From Actinomycetota bacterium (GTDB lineage Bacteria; Actinomycetota; Thermoleophilia; RBG-16-64-13), in the NCBI GenBank assembly GCA_018830645.1, contig JAHJSA010000023.1:71482-135481 (forward strand): a DNA stretch of 64,000 nt, written 5' to 3'. Position 1 is the stretch's first letter. Every line of letters begins with the position of its first letter. Shown piece after piece: positions 290-39,078 of this stretch. The notes below the pieces were generated by a model, which was not told the DNA's origin, did no database searches, and was given only the letters and a program-made list of their open reading frames with translations. Position numbers and translations under genes: made by a program.

Positions 290-1777
290 CTACCGGCCGG
301 TCTGCGCCTCCAGTTCGCGAGCAGCCACGATCTCGTCGAGCCTGGCCTCCACAGCCGCGTCCAAGGGGATCGGTCGATGGCTCTCGAGCAGCGCCCTGGC
401 GATGTCGTACGCGCGCTCGGCGGCCGTGCGGGAGCCGTCTCGCTCCCAGATCTCCCGGGCCTTCCGGTCGAAGAGACTCGACGAGCTCATCTCGCGCATG
501 TGCTCGAACGTGTGGTCGTGGCTCACGTACTCGCCGCCCGGGCCGACCTCCTCGATGACCTTCAGGGCCGCGTCGAGCTCACTCATGTCGATGCCCTGGG
601 TGACCCTGCGGATGCGTCCCGCCTGCTCGGCGCCCATGATCATGGAAGCGTAGTCGAAGGTGATCAACGACTCGATCGCGCCGATGCCGTACACGATATT
701 GGCGCCGGCCAACGCGGCGGGCATGGCGGTGAGGGTGAAGTCGTACCCCTGTTGGGCGTCGGGCAACTTACTGTCGGTCGCGCCGGCTCCGGCCCAGGAA
801 GGGATGCCGTAGCGCTGCGCCAGCTGCACACTGGCCACCGAATGCAGGGCCATCTCGGGTACGCCCACGGGGGACGCGCTCCGAAGCAGGTCCATGATCG
901 TGCTGTTGTTGGCCATCATGCACGGGGTCCCCGGGCGGACTATCTGAGCGAGCACGATCGCACTCAACACCTCGGCGTTGTGCTGCACCACGACACCAAC
1001 GGGCGTGGCCGGCGACGATGCCCCAGACAGCGACATGGGATGCATGGCCATACCGACCCCGCGACTGGCCGCCTCGATCAGGGCCGAGGTGCACTCGGAG
1101 ACCAGTCCCAGCGGGCTCGTGGGACACAGAAGGCACGTCACGATCGGTCGTGCGCGGAGTTCATCGGCGCCGCCTGCGACCGCTTCGGCCATGTCGATGA
1201 TCGCGCCTGCGTTGTCGCCGCCGTTGAAACCGAGGAACACGTGCTTGCTCGTGCCTCGGACCATGGCGTCGTAGTTGTGCACCGACTGCACCGCGGTGGG
1301 CTTGTCGCCCGAGCAGGCGGCCCGCTCGACGAAGCTGATGATGTCGAGCGCGTCCTGGAGCCGGGAGATGTCGGCAAGGTCCTGCTTGGTCGTGGAGCGC
1401 AGTTCGTACGTGTACGGATCGACGATCCGCACGTGCTCCCCGTAGCCCGCGGTGTAGCCCGTGACACCCGGTTCGAGGAGGAAGTCGTCCTCCGGCCGGC
1501 GCCCGCACAGCGTGAAACTCTCCGGAGCGGCCGCGATCGACTCTTCCACGAGTGCGGCCGGCATCCGGACGAGAAACTGATCGCCCTGCGCTTCGACGGT
1601 AGCGCCTCCCTTTCGGAATACGTCGGCCGCCTCGGGATCCTCCACTCGCACCCCAACGTTCCACAGCACGTGGAGGGTGGCCTGGTGTAGAGTCTCGATC
1701 TCGTCAGGCTCGAGTCCCAGCAGGCTCCACCTGCCTCGGCCCGGACGCCTCGATACGTGTGCTGATGTGTCTGCCAT
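290..1777 (-). CDS. MttB-family methyltransferase without pyrrolysine (MttB-1)
   Basis: A 495-residue protein of the trimethylamine methyltransferase superfamily (TIM-barrel; methyl transfer from an N-methylated substrate to a corrinoid protein). The column that holds pyrrolysine in true MttB is Ala here (context AGATDSKLPDAQ), so it belongs with the non-Pyl members, some of which demethylate glycine betaine, proline betaine, carnitine or butyrobetaine. The substrate cannot be read from sequence. The start was set at the ATG at 1775-1777, which follows GAGGGCGGG and gives the usual family N-terminus; a longer open frame runs through a tandem repeat and is unlikely. It follows the Pyl-containing mttB gene on the same strand. 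It ends in TAG, with an in-frame TGA four codons later. Confidence 0.9.
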   Translation of the reverse strand: MADTSAHVSRRPGRGRWSLLGLEPDEIETLHQATLHVLWNVGVRVEDPEAADVFRKGGATVEAQGDQFLVRMPAALVEESIAAAPESFTLCGRRPEDDFLLEPGVTGYTAGYGEHVRIVDPYTYELRSTTKQDLADISRLQDALDIISFVERAACSGDKPTAVQSVHNYDAMVRGTSKHVFLGFNGGDNAGAIIDMAEAVAGGADELRARPIVTCLLCPTSPLGLVSECTSALIEAASRGVGMAMHPMSLSGASSPATPVGVVVQHNAEVLSAIVLAQIVRPGTPCMMANNSTIMDLLRSASPVGVPEMALHSVASVQLAQRYGIPSWAGAGATDSKLPDAQQGYDFTLTAMPAALAGANIVYGIGAIESLITFDYASMIMGAEQAGRIRRVTQGIDMSELDAALKVIEEVGPGGEYVSHDHTFEHMREMSSSSLFDRKAREIWERDGSRTAAERAYDIARALLESHRPIPLDAAVEARLDEIVAARELEAQTGR

Positions 1778-2003: not shown

Positions 2004-3467
2004 TCAGCCCACTCGGCGCTTCACGTCGGCGAAGACGGCTTCGGCTTCCGCCGAGATCGGAGCCACCTGATGGGTGGCGAGGATCTCGCGGGCAACGGCG
2101 AGAGAACGGGCGTGGAGGTCTTCGGCTCCCCGCTTCTCCCAACTCGAACGCATGCGCCGGTCGATGACCTTCACCTTCGACTGCTCGCGCAAGGCGAGCG
2201 CCCGGGTGTGCTTGGCCCGCATGAAGTGGCCATCGGAGCCCACCTCCTTGATCACATCGATGCCCATGGTCTCGCGGTCGAAAAGGATGCCCTCCAACAC
2301 ACGGCGGTTCATGAGCGCGAACTCGTTGTCCATGACCATCTGACCGAAATCGAACGTCAACCCTAGCTCCAGCATCCCCATCCCATAGATCAGGTTGGCC
2401 CCTGCCAACGCTGGTAACAAACTGGTGATGGTCTTCTCGTGGCCTGCTTGAGCGTCGGGTAGCTTGCTGTCGCCCTAACCGCCCGCTACCCAGCAGGGCA
2501 GATAGTAGAAGTCGCTCATCTCGGCCACGGCCGTGGAGATCATGGCGAGCTCGGGTGCGCCCACCGGGGCGGTGGCGTACGTCATGTCGAAGGTGGTGGT
2601 GCTGCTGCCATATATGACCGGAGCCCCCGGCCGGGTGGCCTGGGAGAGCACGATGCCGGAAAGCACCTCGGCGTTGTGAGTGACCAGCGACCCTGAGAGG
2701 CTGATAGGTCCAGACGCTCCCGCCATGGCCATGGAGAGCACGTTCACCGGCACCTCGTGCCGGGCCCCGTACATGATGGACTCGGTCGAGGCCGTGTGTA
2801 GCTGAAGGGGACTCGTGGGACAGGTGTTCAGTGAGAAGAGTGGGCGCTCGCGCAACTGATCACGCCCTCCCGCCACCGCGGAAGCCATTTCTACCAGGAG
2901 TTCCACGTGCGCACCGCTGTTGGCCCCCATGTGGATGTGCTTCGTGGTGTTCCGCATGCAGGTGTCGAGCACGTAGATGTCATGGGCGTGCTCGGGGGCC
3001 CCTCCGGGAGTGAGGGCACGCTCGTAGGTGTTGGTCATGTCCATCGCGTCGCAGAGGCGCGCGCTCTGAGCAAGGTCCTCCAGAGTGGAGTCGCGCAGTT
3101 CTCCGCTCTCCGGGTCGACGACCTTGGTGCCCTCGCCGAAGTTGGTGTAGCCGACCACCCGGCCGCCCATGAGATAGTCGCGCTGCCCATCTCGCGAGGC
3201 AAGGAGGATCTTCCCTGGGGCTGACGCGACAGCGTCTTCCACCACGCTCGGCGGGAAGCGAACCATACTCGTGGCAGTATCCACGGTGCAGCCGGCCTTG
3301 GAGAGCACCTCGTGAGCCTCTTCGCCGGCCACCTTGATCCCCACCTCGGAGAGCACCTCGAGAGTCGCCTGGTGCACGGCTTCGCGGCCCTCGTGGCTCA
3401 AGAGTTCGAAGCGGAGCCTGGGAACTCCGGCGTCGTCGTCGCTCCGCGGTTTGTCTCTGAAGCTCAT
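2004..3467 (-). CDS. mttB: Trimethylamine:corrinoid methyltransferase with in-frame amber (pyrrolysine) codon
   Basis: One 487-residue protein read through TAG at codon 331. The parts on each side are in the same frame and both align with MttB-1 without a gap: upstream ends DFYYLPCWVAGG, then amber, then GDSKLPDAQAGHE. In Methanosarcina barkeri MttB pyrrolysine is residue 334 in the same surroundings, and full length matches the family (about 495). The C-terminal part (LAGANLIYGMGMLE, FDFGQMVMDNE) is typical of MttB. It would demethylate trimethylamine, methylating a cognate corrinoid protein. ATG at 3467 has GAGGAGG six bases upstream; the true stop is TGA. It lies 83 bp below a dipeptide-type ABC ATPase gene. 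Standard gene callers will split it into 330- and 139-residue pieces. Confidence 0.93.
2475..2477 (-). other. In-frame UAG, predicted pyrrolysine codon of mttB
   Basis: Plus strand reads CTA, minus TAG. It is flanked by uninterrupted coding sequence in one frame and falls in the alignment column occupied by pyrrolysine in archaeal MttB (Ala in MttB-1, Gly in MttB-3 of this window). Confidence 0.92.
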
Positions 3468-3550
3468 GAGGTCCTCCTCATCTATGACTCATCGAGGCCT
3501 ACGCCGAGGCGGACCGACAGCCGGCCGCCGCGACCTACATCCGGGTGGCC

Positions 3551-10982: not shown

Positions 10983-12389
10983 TCAGCCGAGCCCGCCCAT
11001 CTTGCGCTTCAACCGCTCCACCGACGGAATGGTGACCCCGAGCAGATCGGCAATGCGCGCTTTCGCCTCCAGACCGCGTGCCGCGCCCGGCACAGACGTC
11101 AACACCCCGATGTCGAGTTCCTCACGCAGTTCCCTCATGGTCACCTCATCGGACAGCTCGCGCGTGCCTACATGGAGTTTCTCTGCCACATACGCCTTCG
11201 CCTCGGGGAGTCGCATCTTGCGGTGGAGTTGCATCCTCGCGACCAGATCTCCGGCCGTGCGGATGCCCCCCATCCCGGAGGCAAGCGCATGTGAGATGGG
11301 CATCCCGTAGGGATCGCCCGAGCCCACCTATAATCCGTCGACGCGACCGATCTTCACCATCGCGACCGACGCCCGCGTGACCATGCTTGTGGGCGGGGTC
11401 TCGCACATCGGAACACCACCGACCCCGATCCCCACGTTCGCGTGAACGGGGATGGTGGCTGCCTCGGAACATGCCTTGACGAAGGTGACCGCCCGAGACA
11501 CGTTCCAGGCAGTGGACCTGCGCGTGTTGGTGTTCACCACCGGGCCAAAGATGTGAGCCCCGGCCTTCTCGACCAGCTTGACCTGCTGGTGGGGATAGAG
11601 GCCGGCGAGGCGCTCCCCATCGTACGTGACCTTGCCGTGCATACCGAGCACGAACTCCGCGGCCATGCCCACCTCGATCGACAAGTCGGTAGTGCGCGCC
11701 AACTCTTCCACGGCGTTCAGTGTGGCGAGGAACTCGGCGTCCCCGGCCGACGCCGTGGTGTCGAAGTTGAAGCCGTCGGCCCCAACTTCAGCCATGCGTT
11801 TCCCGATGTAGACCATGTCGCGCGTACAGGCTTCAGCCGCCTCCTCCTGCGCGGATCGGGCTTCGTCGATCTTACCCATGGGGAGGAGATCCGCCGGGTT
11901 GCCGAACGGGCCGTCGGGCCGTGCGTACAGTGCGAGGTTGGGCATCGCCCCGTAATACATGGGGATGATGGTGGTGTGCAGCACGCTCTCCATCGCCTGG
12001 AGTTCCAGCGCGATGATCGGCTTGACGGGCTTGAACGAGTAGTCCGGGTGACCGACCTCCATGGTGTCCATCGCGAACGCCCGCTCGTACACCCTGATCG
12101 CCGACTCGCGGCTGATGGGCACACCGACCCCGCTGGAGCTCTGAGCTCCATAGAGCGCGTTCACCGAACCATCGTCGGTCAAGACCACCTCATCACCCGG
12201 CACCACACCCACGATCTTCCCTTCGAAGGTGAAGAGATCGAGCAGATAGTCCTGCTCCCCTTGGCTGAGGGCTGGGATCTTGCCCCTATCGGCGGCGTCT
12301 TCGGTGCCGGCGAGGATGTCGGCACGGATCTCGTCGACGGTCATCTCGACCGCGTGACCGTCGCCCATGCGTGTGTAGATCTTCGTCAT
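10983..12389 (-). CDS. mtbB: Dimethylamine:corrinoid methyltransferase with in-frame amber (pyrrolysine) codon
   Basis: One 468-residue protein read through TAG at codon 354. In M. barkeri MtbB pyrrolysine is residue 356 and total length is about 467. Around the amber codon the sequence reads KIGRVDGL[15 protein letters not shown], followed by [19 protein letters not shown], the expected MtbB C-terminus. The N-terminal part ([45 protein letters not shown]) also fits. It would transfer a methyl group from dimethylamine to a corrinoid protein. ATG at 12389 has GGAGG ten bases upstream; the true stop is TGA. It lies 146 bp downstream of the corrinoid-mttB3-dehydrogenase operon, same strand. A naive annotation gives two fragments. 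Confidence 0.95.
11328..11330 (-). other. In-frame UAG, predicted pyrrolysine codon of mtbB
   Basis: Plus strand CTA, minus TAG, preceded by TTA and followed directly by GTG in the same frame. Position and flanking residues (VDGL before, VGSGDP after) match the pyrrolysine site of archaeal MtbB. Confidence 0.94.
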
Positions 12390-12535: not shown

Positions 12536-13270
12536 TCAGCCCTCCCACCCCCGCACCGCTTCTATGACGCAACGCAGTTGTCGCTCGAACGCCGCCTCGG
12601 TCGCCCACGCGACGTGGTCGGTCACGACGAGAGCCCCGGCCTTGAGGCGCAGGAACTCGTCCGGACCCAGCACAAGCCCCGCTTCCCCGGGCAGGTGAAG
12701 CGTCATCACCGACGCCGGCTCTAGCACCCGCGCGAGTGGCACCGACTCGATGCCTTCGAGGGGTCGCCTTGAGACCGCGAGTACGTCGCAGCCGAGGGCC
12801 ACGAGAACGGCGGCGACGCGGCGGCCGATACCCCCGAGCCCGATCACTCCCACAGTACGCCCGGATAGCTCCCCACCCAGGCTTCCGGACACCTCGCCCA
12901 GTCCCCCGGAGACACTGCGGCGGATCTGCCGGCCTCTCAACAGGTGAAGAAGGAACGCAATGGTGAACTCGGCCACGGCCCCGCTCGAGTAGTCGCCGGC
13001 GTGGGTGACTACCACGCCCCGCTCGGCGCAGGCTCCCAGGTCGATGTGATCGAGACCCGCGGTGCGCGAGACCACCGCGCGCAAGCGGGGCAGACGTTCG
13101 AGTTCGGCGGTGCCAACCCTCGAGCGCACCTCGACGATCGCCATCTCGCACTCAGGGTGATCCCGAGCACGCTCATGCAGCGTGCGCGGCTCGAGCCGGA
13201 CCCTGCTCCGCACGTCGGCCGGGAGACCCGCCGACTCGGCCGCCGTCACTTCGAACAGCACGAGGCTCAC
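12536..13270 (-). CDS. 2-hydroxyacid dehydrogenase-like protein with internal deletion, probably inactive
   Basis: A 244-residue relative of D-isomer 2-hydroxyacid dehydrogenases. It keeps the Rossmann motif GVIGLGGIGRRVA and the N-terminal region, but against the paralogue at 21532-22410 it lacks about 48 residues between ALVV and TDHVAWAT. The missing block carries the family's catalytic Arg (NTAR in the paralogue) and Glu (WETEP); only the His of TDH remains. The frame is intact, so this is an in-frame deletion and not a frameshift. GTG start at 13270 overlaps the stop of the mttB-like gene upstream by four bases (GTGA), suggesting translational coupling. It may be decaying or may have become a non-catalytic NAD-binding protein. 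Confidence 0.8.
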   Translation of the reverse strand: MSLVLFEVTAAESAGLPADVRSRVRLEPRTLHERARDHPECEMAIVEVRSRVGTAELERLPRLRAVVSRTAGLDHIDLGACAERGVVVTHAGDYSSGAVAEFTIAFLLHLLRGRQIRRSVSGGLGEVSGSLGGELSGRTVGVIGLGGIGRRVAAVLVALGCDVLAVSRRPLEGIESVPLARVLEPASVMTLHLPGEAGLVLGPDEFLRLKAGALVVTDHVAWATEAAFERQLRCVIEAVRGWEG

Positions 13271-14697
13271 TTGGCGTTCAGATCCGCCCGCGCCTCCGCG
13301 ATCACCTCGTCGATCTCGCGCTCGATGTCGTCGGAGAGCGGCTCCACCACGTGAGTGGCAAGGATCTCGGTCACCCGGGCTCGAGCGTGCTGCTGGATGG
13401 TCGGCCGACCCTCCCTGTCCCAATCGCTGTAGTTCCGGCGGTCGGACAGTCGCGGCGTCCACACTTCGCTGGCTCTCATGAACTTGCGTGTATGGTCGAG
13501 GGCGAGGAATCCGCCTTCGCCCATGACCGCTTCATGGATCGCCGCGACGCCGAGCGCGTCTTCGTCTACTTGGATGCCACGCATGAACCTCGTGACCCAT
13601 GACATGATCTCGTCGTCGAGCACGATGAGTTCGGCCGACGTGTGGATCACGTTGTCACCCGCGCCCAACGAGGCCAGGACATTGGCGCCGGACTGAGCCG
13701 CGGGGAGAAGCGTGAGCGCGCGCTCGAAGCCGTTCTGATCGTCCATGGCCCGAGCGCTCGAGCCGAATGCCGTGACGCTGCCGGGGATCTTGTAGTAGCG
13801 CGCCATCTGCGCCGTGGCCACGGACATGAGGGCGACCTCGGGGTTGCCCCAGATGCTCTGTCCCGTGCGCATGTCCATGACCGTCGGCCGAGGCTCGTAG
13901 AGGATGGGCGCGCCCGGGTTGACCACCTGGGCGAGCACGAGTCCCGCCAGGATCTCGGCGTTCTGCTGCACCAGGGTGCCGGCAATCGACATCGGGCCGG
14001 TGGCTCCCACGATCGGCGCGGGGATCACTCCCAAGGGCACGCCCGCGGCAGCCGCCACCATCAGGGCCCGGGTCGAATCGCCCGACAAGGTGAGCGGACT
14101 CAGCGGGGACACGGAGATCTGCAACTGGGGGCGAGACACCATCGCCTCCATGCCTCCGTGGACCGCGGCCGCTATCTTCAACGAGTAGCGGACCTCATCG
14201 CCCGACTCCACCGCCACCCTGAGCGGCTTCGTAGTGTTCCTGAACATCGTGGCCACCCGCACCGGGGTCACGATCTCGGGCTCCACGTCTTTCGGCGTGG
14301 CCGGGGACGCCATGTGCGTGTTGGGAAGCGCGTCGACGAGCCGAGTGAGGTCGGCGACGTCCTTGACCAGGGCGTGGCGTCGCTCCCCCGTCTCATGGTC
14401 GATGACGAACGGGCTCCCGGTGGTGGAGAGCGTGTAGAAGCGGCCCGGCACAAGGGGGCAGTCGTGCTCGGGCGTGCGCCCGCACAGGGTGAACTCCGCT
14501 GGGCTCGACTCTACCGCCCTCGCGACCAAGTCCGCCGGGAAGGTGACGCGCTCCCCGCGCACACCGCAGCCGGCCGCCTCAAGCCGTTCGCGAGCGTCCG
14601 CATCTTGGATGAGCATGCCCGTGCGCGCCAAGACCTCTAGAGTCGCCGCGTGTATCCCGTCCAGATCCTCGGAGCTGAGCACCTCGAAGAACTTCAT
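13267..14697 (-). CDS. MttB-family methyltransferase without pyrrolysine (MttB-3)
   Basis: A 476-residue MttB superfamily protein, shorter and more divergent than the other two. The pyrrolysine column is Gly (context TAFGSSARAMDDQ) and the DSK motif is lost, so its substrate is likely a quaternary amine or another N-methyl compound. Family features include FTLCGRTPEHDC, VQQNAEILAGLVLAQVVNPG and LTLLPAAQSGANVL. ATG at 14697 has GGGAG eight bases upstream. It is 25 bp below the corrinoid protein gene and overlaps the dehydrogenase gene, so methyltransferase and corrinoid partner are co-transcribed. Ends in TGA. Confidence 0.9.
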   Translation of the reverse strand: MKFFEVLSSEDLDGIHAATLEVLARTGMLIQDADARERLEAAGCGVRGERVTFPADLVARAVESSPAEFTLCGRTPEHDCPLVPGRFYTLSTTGSPFVIDHETGERRHALVKDVADLTRLVDALPNTHMASPATPKDVEPEIVTPVRVATMFRNTTKPLRVAVESGDEVRYSLKIAAAVHGGMEAMVSRPQLQISVSPLSPLTLSGDSTRALMVAAAAGVPLGVIPAPIVGATGPMSIAGTLVQQNAEILAGLVLAQVVNPGAPILYEPRPTVMDMRTGQSIWGNPEVALMSVATAQMARYYKIPGSVTAFGSSARAMDDQNGFERALTLLPAAQSGANVLASLGAGDNVIHTSAELIVLDDEIMSWVTRFMRGIQVDEDALGVAAIHEAVMGEGGFLALDHTRKFMRASEVWTPRLSDRRNYSDWDREGRPTIQQHARARVTEILATHVVEPLSDDIEREIDEVIAEARADLNAK

Positions 14698-14722: not shown

Positions 14723-15376
14723 TCAACGGATCCCGGCCAGTTCCCGGGCGACCTCGACCGCACGGGCGGCGTCGGGCGCGAACCCGTCGGCCCCTACCCG
14801 GTCGGCCCAGTCCTGATCGATGGGCGCGCCTCCGAGCAGCACCTTGACCTTCGAACGCAATCCGGCCGCCTCGAGCGCCTTGATCACGGCTTCCTGTTGG
14901 TGCACGGTGGTGGTGAGGAGGGCGGACAACCCGAGGAACGCAGCTTCGGTATCCCGCACCTTGTCCACAAAGACCTCTACGGGCACGTTCACCCCAAGAT
15001 CGTCCACAGCGAAACCCGAAGCCTTCAGCATCGCGGCGACGATGTTCTTCCCGATGGAGTGAAGATCGCCGTGCACGGTGCCGAGCACGATCCTCGCGTG
15101 GGTGGGCCTCTCCTCGCCCGCGCCCGCCAGCAGCGGCTGGAGCACCTCGAGCCCGATCTCCATCGACTGCGCACCCCGCACGAGATCAGGCAGGAAGTAC
15201 GCACCCTTCTGGAATTCCTCACCCACGCGCCGGATGCCTTCAGTCAGGCCCTCGCTGACGATCGTGAGAGCCGGAAGCCCTGCTTCAAGGGCCTTCTCGG
15301 TCAGCGACTTCACCAACGATGGCTCGCCGTCCAGGACCGCAGCCCGGATCTCGGCCAGTAACGCTTCGGTGTCCAT
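14723..15376 (-). CDS. Methyltransferase cognate corrinoid protein (MtbC/MttC family)
   Basis: A 217-residue protein with an N-terminal four-helix cap domain (about 1-90) and a B12-binding Rossmann domain. The cobalt-ligand motif D-x-H-x-x-G is present as GDLHSIG with His106, followed by LGVNVP and LGGAPIDQDW. It accepts methyl groups from MttB/MtbB-type enzymes and passes them to a second methyltransferase. It is the only corrinoid protein in the window, so the four methyltransferases either share it or use others elsewhere. First gene of a minus-strand operon with MttB-3 and the dehydrogenase; divergent from the PucR gene. ATG at 15376 follows a G-rich tract (AGAGGGGG). Confidence 0.95.
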   Translation of the reverse strand: MDTEALLAEIRAAVLDGEPSLVKSLTEKALEAGLPALTIVSEGLTEGIRRVGEEFQKGAYFLPDLVRGAQSMEIGLEVLQPLLAGAGEERPTHARIVLGTVHGDLHSIGKNIVAAMLKASGFAVDDLGVNVPVEVFVDKVRDTEAAFLGLSALLTTTVHQQEAVIKALEAAGLRSKVKVLLGGAPIDQDWADRVGADGFAPDAARAVEVARELAGIR

Positions 15377-37175: not shown

Positions 37176-38981
37176 TTACTGCAGGTAGAGCACCCCGGTC
37201 GAGAACACCGACGTCATCCCCCCGCTGTTCTCGTATCTGATGCCGGAGATGGCGGTCTTGGTCTTCCGCTGGCCATCCGCGAGTGTGCGCACTGTCACGG
37301 CCGTACCGGCGACGTTCCCCACCGTGTCGTATGCGATCGCGACGAGCCTGTGCTCACCCATCTTCTCGGTGCGCGCGTCCCACACGAAAGCGTAGGGGGC
37401 GGTCCTGTCGGTTCCCAACATGCGGCCGTTGGCAATGAGTTCCACCTTCAGGATCCCGGCCGGGGCCGTAGCCCTCACTTCGACGGGGATCCGCCCGCGA
37501 ACCACAGCGCCGTCCGTGGGCTTGAGAAACACGATAGCCGGCAGCCCGTCGGCCGGCGCAGTCCTAGTCGGCGCGGTGGTCGTGGTCGTGGGCGCTACGG
37601 TAGTCGTGGTTTTCGGCACCGTCGTGGTGGTGGTCGGCGCCGCGATCGTGGTGGTGGTCGGGGCGACGGCCGTCGTTGTCGTGGTCGGCGCGACGGTGGT
37701 CGTGGTTTTCGGCACCGTCGTAGTGGTGGTCGGCGCCGCGGTGGTCGTGGTGGTGGCGGGCGCCGCAATCTTGATCAGGATGGACGCGGTGTTCGGAGCC
37801 AGTGTCACCGAAGTGAGAGCAACGCCCAGGTTGTCGGTGACACCACTCACCGGCACTGTGCGCGTAGTGCTCTTGGATGGGTTGACGAGCACGAGGGCTC
37901 GGGCGAAGTCGCGTACATACACTCCGTCCGGACGCAGTGAATACTTGCCGAGAGGCGCCCCGAGATCCCGCGCCCACTCGTTCGACCAGGCGGGCGTGCC
38001 GTACCCGGCATTCGAGCCCGACTCATGGTGGTACAAGGAGACTCCGCCGGCCGCCAGCAGGTACGTCGCGTATGCGTAGGTCTCGGAGCGGGTGTCACCC
38101 ACCGCGGCGTGGCTCACGAAGAAGGAGATCTTGCCCAGACGCTCGGAGGCTTCGACTTCGAGGAGTTGGTTGCGCCACCAGTCCTCCGCCGACTTGAAGT
38201 GGGCGTTCGGATCTGTCCCGGAGTGTACGAACTGCTCGTCCATCAGTCCGTCGGAGATAGAGAGCCAGTCCTCCCAGAGGGTGTCGTACCACAGATGGTC
38301 GACGACGTTGCCCACCAGGAGGAGGTTGTTGCCGCCGGCCTTCGTCTTGCCGTAGGCATGCTGGAGGAAGCCGCGCACCGCCGCGCGCAGCGAGGTGCTG
38401 TCGGGGTAGCGGGCGAGTGAGCGGTCGAGTTCTCCGTACTTGCGCGTGTAAAGGTCATCAGCGAAGATCCCGTCGAAGCCGAGGGCCTTGGCACGTTCGA
38501 TGGACCGTGCGGTCCAGTATTCTCTCCATCCTTGGTTACCCCAGTCCATGGCGTAGAAGTCCGTCCCGGGGTAGTACTGGAAGACGACCCGGTTGCCCGC
38601 CGCGTCCTTCAGGAACCAATCGGGATGGTTGAGGTCGATGTTCTCCCCAGTGCGGAACCCGCCGACGGTGGAAGCATTGTCGTCGGAACGAAGGAAGAAG
38701 GAGTTCTTGTAGAGGAGCACCTTGACGGAGGGGTTCGCGGCCTTGAGGGCCGGGATCTGACCTGCGTTCCACTCGTTCAGCACCACGACCGAGTAGCGCG
38801 AGGCCGCCTGATTCAGATCGCCCAACTGGAAGAGACCTACGATCCGCTGGGGATTGACGTTCGCGGCCGCAGCCACACCCGCGAAGACCGTGAGTACGAG
38901 GCTCGCCGCTACCAGCACCGACCCTAACAACGTGCCGAGCCGTAGATTCCCCGGGCCCCGCACCTCCCTCGCCACCAACAT
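37176..38981 (-). CDS. Secreted glycoside-hydrolase-like protein (GHL15-type) with Thr/Pro linker and Ig-like domain
   Basis: A 601-residue exported protein. Signal peptide to about residue 40. Residues 45-330 resemble the putative glycosyl-hydrolase family (TIM barrel; DFYAMDWGNQGWREYW, FDGIFADDL with likely catalytic acids, VSHAAVGDT). Residues about 405-475 are a repetitive TTTT-AP linker, then an Ig-like domain (FLKPTDGAVVRGRIPVEV, YDTVGNVAGTAVTV). Probably cuts or modifies the cell's own surface polysaccharide. A c-di-GMP-I riboswitch precedes it. ATG at 38981; AAGGAGAGG lies ten bases upstream, just after the riboswitch. The only gene in the window ending in TAA. Confidence 0.85.
   Translation of the reverse strand: MLVAREVRGPGNLRLGTLLGSVLVAASLVLTVFAGVAAAANVNPQRIVGLFQLGDLNQAASRYSVVVLNEWNAGQIPALKAANPSVKVLLYKNSFFLRSDDNASTVGGFRTGENIDLNHPDWFLKDAAGNRVVFQYYPGTDFYAMDWGNQGWREYWTARSIERAKALGFDGIFADDLYTRKYGELDRSLARYPDSTSLRAAVRGFLQHAYGKTKAGGNNLLLVGNVVDHLWYDTLWEDWLSISDGLMDEQFVHSGTDPNAHFKSAEDWWRNQLLEVEASERLGKISFFVSHAAVGDTRSETYAYATYLLAAGGVSLYHHESGSNAGYGTPAWSNEWARDLGAPLGKYSLRPDGVYVRDFARALVLVNPSKSTTRTVPVSGVTDNLGVALTSVTLAPNTASILIKIAAPATTTTTAAPTTTTTVPKTTTTVAPTTTTTAVAPTTTTIAAPTTTTTVPKTTTTVAPTTTTTAPTRTAPADGLPAIVFLKPTDGAVVRGRIPVEVRATAPAGILKVELIANGRMLGTDRTAPYAFVWDARTEKMGEHRLVAIAYDTVGNVAGTAVTVRTLADGQRKTKTAISGIRYENSGGMTSVFSTGVLYLQ
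37560..37772. repeat. Low-complexity Thr/Pro-coding repeat in the secreted hydrolase gene
   Basis: Imperfect repeats of motifs such as gtggtcggcgc and ggttttcggcaccgtcgt encode APTTTTTVPKTTTTVAP-type segments. It serves as an extracellular linker between catalytic and Ig-like domains and is prone to length change. Confidence 0.85.
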
Positions 38982-39000
38982 CTCCCAAGCACCTCTCCTT

Positions 39001-39078
39001 CGGCAGTCCGGCCACCTGATTCACTCAGGTCCGTGACTTTGCGCCCCCACCTCACGATGGGTTTGCCTTTGTCGGGAT
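39001..39078 (-). promoter_or_regulatory. Cyclic di-GMP-I (GEMM-I) riboswitch
   Basis: The minus strand carries the conserved GEMM-I elements in order: AAAGGCAAACC, a hairpin CCCATC-GTGA-GGTGGG closed by a GNRA tetraloop, GGCGCAAAG, CACGGACC, a second hairpin ACCTGA/TCAGGT, and GGCCGGACTGCCG. The GNRA loop would dock on the receptor formed by the second stem, as in the Vibrio Vc2 RNA. The 3' edge lies 20 bases from the ATG of the secreted hydrolase gene, next to its AAGGAGAGG ribosome site, so control of translation start is likely; no terminator with a U-run is visible. It links surface polysaccharide turnover to c-di-GMP. Confidence 0.94.

Follow-up and report, generated by a model that had tools for sequence, protein, structure and literature searches.

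In this study, we conclude that a gene in an actinobacterial genome very probably encodes a dimethylamine:corrinoid methyltransferase (MtbB) whose UAG codon 354 is decoded as pyrrolysine (Pyl), in a genus that completes Pyl without a recognisable PylD. The gene (10983..12389, minus strand) lies in a window of 64,000 nucleotides, the whole stretch of DNA analysed here, which corresponds to C11:71482-135481 of genome G000 (3.87 Mb, 65-66% GC, 99.84% complete). Genomes were searched and sampled in stretches. The organism is known from metagenome bins only, which counts against the overall explanation; it would be an anaerobic, methylamine-using actinobacterium.

The mtbB gene and its amber codon

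Read through one in-frame TAG, mtbB encodes 468 residues, from an ATG start at 12389-12387 to a TGA terminator at 10985-10983, and a GGAGG ribosome-binding site can be read from the sequence about 10 nt 5' of the ATG (12404-12400, minus strand). The TAG occupies codon 354 (11330-11328, minus strand), where the original prediction had placed it. The predicted family was likewise confirmed, as the protein belongs to NCBIfam TIGR02368 (580 bits, cut-off 369, residues 4-462) and matches Pfam PF09505 (681 bits); both matches span the TAG, and MtbB homology is thus continuous across it. When 53 MtbB sequences, drawn from Actinobacteria, Firmicutes and Deltaproteobacteria, are aligned, the TAG falls in the Pyl column, not off it, and 52 of the 53 have TAG there. 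The Rfam PYLIS_2 model also begins on this UAG, so the amber codon sits in the Pyl site proper to MtbB, as had been proposed. The remaining sequence, L026 (Deltaproteobacterium AB_69_Bin_102, match 2160-3533), is the sole MtbB with a sense codon, TCG, in this column, which represents either a genuine serine variant or a sequencing error. The mtbB orthologue in the second genome, G067, also carries the TAG. With the column conserved and the orthologue sharing the codon, chance or sequencing error, already judged very unlikely in the original prediction, can be excluded in practice. Among named relatives, the closest to mtbB are Actinomycetes, Actinomycetota and Thermoleophilia bins, and a comparison with phage records gave no match. 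Judged by its sequence, the gene is a genuine bacterial MtbB using the amber codon for pyrrolysine, and in itself an ordinary one.

An AlphaFold2 model of MtbB (35 sequences) reached a pLDDT of 91.7 and a pTM of 0.92. The full-length protein is predicted to be a TIM barrel, with residue 354, modelled as lysine, on the barrel strand 352-355. A sequence search for an MtbB relative of known structure found none; the nearest solved folds are methyl-transfer barrels, namely MetH (Z 18.6) and a Methanosarcina mazei methyltransferase (4ay8, Z 17.9). MtmB and MttB were not among the fold matches listed, which says nothing on their absence. The modelled barrel resembles methyl-transfer enzymes, and fold likeness alone is no proof of function. 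In the proposed reaction, MtbB would take a methyl group off dimethylamine and pass it on to a corrinoid protein; corrinoid protein genes are present.

One of these, nearest MtgC/MtbC and B12-binding, lies at 14723..15376. An MttB-superfamily methyltransferase gene without TAG lies at 13267..14697 and a second such gene at 290..1669 (all minus strand). A trimethylamine methyltransferase gene, mttB (2004..3467, minus strand; TIGR02369, 653 bits, cut-off 525), has an in-frame TAG at 2475-2477 (codon 331). Beside mtbB, a 2-hydroxyacid dehydrogenase gene (12536..13270, minus strand) is about 55 aa shorter than its sister-genome orthologue (L010:6978-7856) and, to judge from this length, is probably decayed. 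Elsewhere in the window, a c-di-GMP-I-GGC riboswitch (38998-39076, minus strand, 72.9 bits) stands just upstream of a gene at 37176-38918 on the same strand.

Probable decoding of UAG in a genome with frequent TAG stops

Eight methyltransferase genes in G000 carry TAG (four MtbB, with one TAG each, one MtmB and three MttB), none with additional stops, and eleven MttB-family genes are without it. The name of the MtmB gene rests on its sequence and on PYLIS_1, which matches at its UAG; no NCBIfam model matched. The fourth mtbB (L191, G000:C24:41298-42701) lies on a different contig, accompanied by a corrinoid protein gene of its own. In the relative G097, the mtmC-mtmB pair is duplicated (L131, G097:C1:98772-100871, and G097:C1:108116-110216); gene calling gave the first mtmB copy as two pieces, and this copy may be broken. 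On C11, to the left of the window and on the same strand, follow mtmC, mtmB (TAG), a permease, mtbC, mtbB (TAG), an mtaA-type methyltransferase, tRNA-Pyl, pylSn, pylSc, pylB and pylC. This methylamine island also holds L002 (G000:C11:43775-46978), a carbamoyl-phosphate synthase large subunit by its N-terminal sequence, which was not seen there in the sister genome.

The genes for tRNA-Pyl(CUA) (C11:59789-59860), PylSn, PylSc, PylB and PylC form one operon on the contig that holds the window, with the synthetase encoded 12 kb beyond the window. The pyrrolysyl-tRNA synthetase (PylRS) is split, with PylSn at 102 bits and PylSc at 284 bits (cut-off 178), and PylB (439 bits) and PylC (312 bits) are each above their cut-offs. 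The original prediction was to fail in a genome without Pyl biosynthesis and charging genes; the charging genes, PylB and PylC are here, whereas PylD was not found, which leaves half of that objection standing. In the proposed mechanism, the split synthetase PylSn/PylSc would charge tRNA-Pyl(CUA), and this tRNA would read UAG354 as pyrrolysine or a very close analogue. We infer the residue from the conserved catalytic motifs of PylSc and, by analogy, from archaeal enzymes, in which Pyl was identified by mass spectrometry (PMC2933860).

Selection on these genes was compared between G000 and orthologues in G067, the second species of the genus, as simple Nei-Gojobori dN/dS. For this mtbB, dN/dS was 0.03 upstream of the TAG and 0.23 downstream, and the downstream values of two other mtbB pairs were 0.07 and 0.24 (mtbB downstream values gap-aware, about 113 codons). 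Whole-gene values were 0.04-0.12 for the other TAG genes, 0.11 for pylB and 0.17 for pylC and pylSc, and tRNA-Pyl is identical in the two genomes. Given the low downstream value, the region after the TAG of mtbB is most likely translated and needed. These results bear on the view that the Pyl system is decaying, so that the TAG is a stop and the product a dead protein of 353 residues. Such decay would fit with the loss of pylD, the damage to the adjoining dehydrogenase gene and the common use of TAG as a stop in G000, but is hard to reconcile with purifying selection 3' of the TAG in every gene compared, the identical tRNA-Pyl and the TAG genes free of further stops, and we regard it as very improbable. 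Considering the downstream selection and the conserved charging genes, read-through of UAG354 is far more likely than termination.

Release factor RF1 is present in G000, and TAG is a frequent terminator. In a sample of 514 kb (L151-L170 and C11:38001-152000), TAG terminates 127 of the 329 called genes (39%); the caller was a simple codon-usage script, and up to about eight of the TAG-ended calls are Pyl genes that it broke off at their internal TAG, which leaves a true share of at least 36%. Samples from relatives with and without the Pyl system had 42-58% TAG stops, and G000 is only somewhat lower. No enrichment of back-up stops was found near TAG terminators in the 514 kb sample, and in at least one mtbB on C11, TAG is both the internal codon and the terminator. 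With TAG ending some 36-39% of ordinary genes, decoding must cope with RF1. It could be inefficient when more than one third of genes stop at TAG, which also counts against the overall explanation. Pyl archaea use TAG rarely, at most 11% in Methanomassiliicoccales, and bacteria are said to cope with UAG by regulation (PMC3941956).

The PYLIS_2 (mtbB) match (11330-11231, minus strand) scored 79.5 bits against a gathering score of 36, mainly as a sequence match, and model position 1 coincides with the U of this amber codon. Pairing in the first stem was not beyond coding expectation (z 0.4 against a synonymous-codon null), in agreement with the doubt over PYLIS already published (PMC2933860); the second stem gave z 7 against the same null, which ignores relatedness. 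We propose that decoding relies on general amber suppression, competing with RF1, and on no dedicated RNA element.

A pyrrolysine cassette without recognisable pylD

To our knowledge, Pyl biosynthesis is known only as PylB-PylC-PylD, with PylD acting last. The best match to the PylD model TIGR03911 in G000 had 20 bits against a cut-off of 150, and PylD was also not found in G067, which is 100% complete and the sole other species of the genus available in our family sample of 18 genomes. Among the 19 class-sample genomes in which PylRS exceeds its cut-off, 17 have PylD, 16 of them above the PylD cut-off and one (G047) with the gene split over two contigs; the remaining two are G000 and G067, which lead the set in completeness. 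Apparent absences in G010 and G018 were discarded, as the pyl operon of G018 leaves its contig at pylC and the pylSc of G010 is on a contig of 5.6 kb. A known-biochemistry objection to the overall explanation follows directly: without PylD, Pyl cannot be finished here by the established route.

It may be that pylD is present in the genus and was missed, having been relocated and lost from both assemblies or having diverged too far. Both genomes are drafts (112 and 30 contigs), and PylD is a member of the large class of Rossmann dehydrogenases, in which divergent relatives hide easily. However, with a profile built from 18 PylD proteins, three family members scored above 311 bits, whereas no match in G000 or G067 exceeded 28 bits; the best weak matches there proved on sequence inspection to be alanine dehydrogenases. 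PylD was also found in all 17 of the other PylRS-positive genomes sampled in the class, including many that are less complete. Gene order gives a further argument. The pylD gene directly follows pylC in G097, G101 and G025; the order in G025 is pylC-pylD-symporter-mttC-mttB, whereas G067 has a contiguous pylC-symporter-mttC-mttB, as if pylD had been excised from the cassette. We therefore consider a missed pylD unlikely, though it deserves more weight than any other alternative to a replacement enzyme.

Import of Pyl, or a neighbour that supplies Pyl or its last step, would fit with the transporter gene directly 3' of pylC in both G000 and G067, the transporter in G000 being different from the G067 symporter. 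Purifying selection on PylB and PylC speaks against this, since both would be pointless were finished Pyl imported, and the symporter adjoins mttC/mttB in PylD-bearing relatives too and so probably serves methylamine use. Supply from outside is improbable on this evidence. We give a similarly low probability to the idea that ring closure is lost and that UAG receives a substitute for Pyl, for example the PylC product in its open-chain form or a different derivative of lysine. The Pyl imine is considered essential for methylamine chemistry, and the PylSc catalytic motifs differ at only a few positions from their counterparts in PylD-bearing relatives, which argues against another residue; in its favour are the retention of PylB and PylC with PylD absent and the acceptance of analogues by PylRS enzymes (PMC11467909).

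Because the TAG genes, tRNA-Pyl and PylRS are conserved, this genus probably produces or obtains Pyl with no recognisable PylD. The simplest reading is that pylD was lost in the ancestor of the genus and that another enzyme sustains Pyl production. The full account, in which pylD was cleanly deleted, an enzyme unrelated to PylD finishes Pyl and the eight amber-coded methyltransferase genes are still used, is held tentatively, at slightly under even chances. The replacement would most likely be an unrelated oxidase, dehydrogenase or aminotransferase.

Several candidates for this role were rejected. The 2-hydroxyacid dehydrogenase beside mtbB is truncated in G000, and the alanine dehydrogenases scored no better with the PylD profile than unrelated matches in PylD-bearing genomes. 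The comparison of class III aminotransferases took the six strongest and left aside four weaker ones; each of the six has orthologues among PylD-bearing relatives (best identity 71-92%). In both sisters, aldehyde oxidoreductase genes lie near the pyl operon, and by eye they resemble an ordinary AOR complex.

Relation to known systems and implications

The bacterial pyl cassette of Desulfitobacterium, Bilophila and Acetohalobium is pylT-Sn-Sc-B-C-D. The cassette described here shares with it a single operon, next to methylamine genes, that contains the split PylRS, tRNA-Pyl(CUA), pylB and pylC; in contrast to it, G000 and its sister G067 are without pylD. A limited literature search found no report of a Pyl cassette without pylD in an intact context. 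MtbB was formerly thought to be nearly confined to Methanosarcinales (PMC3941956). Compared with the Methanosarcina MtbB (TIGR02368/PF09505), the present one is bacterial, comes from a high-GC genome and exists in four copies, and its host stops more than one third of its genes with TAG, a codon rare in Pyl archaea (PMC3941956).

A study of Stordalen Mire reports that Actinobacteriota MAGs there express Pyl-encoding mttB and mtbB (PMC10805028), the same amber-coded gene families in the same phylum; pylD and stop-codon use do not come up in the passages concerned. As Pyl-encoding mtbB of Actinobacteriota has already been reported, the present mtbB is a further case of a known gene type. The unexpected and more consequential part is the missing pylD, and the novelty rests there and not on mtbB.

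This mtbB adds to the evidence that actinobacteria carry amber-coded mono-, di- and trimethylamine methyltransferases, which bear on competition with methanogens and which automatic annotation splits in two. The heavy use of TAG stops in the same cells adds another test case for the separation of sense from stop UAG. A natural lineage without PylD, if true, would point to a second ring-closure enzyme, which could be of use in expanding the genetic code, or else to another amino acid being encoded.
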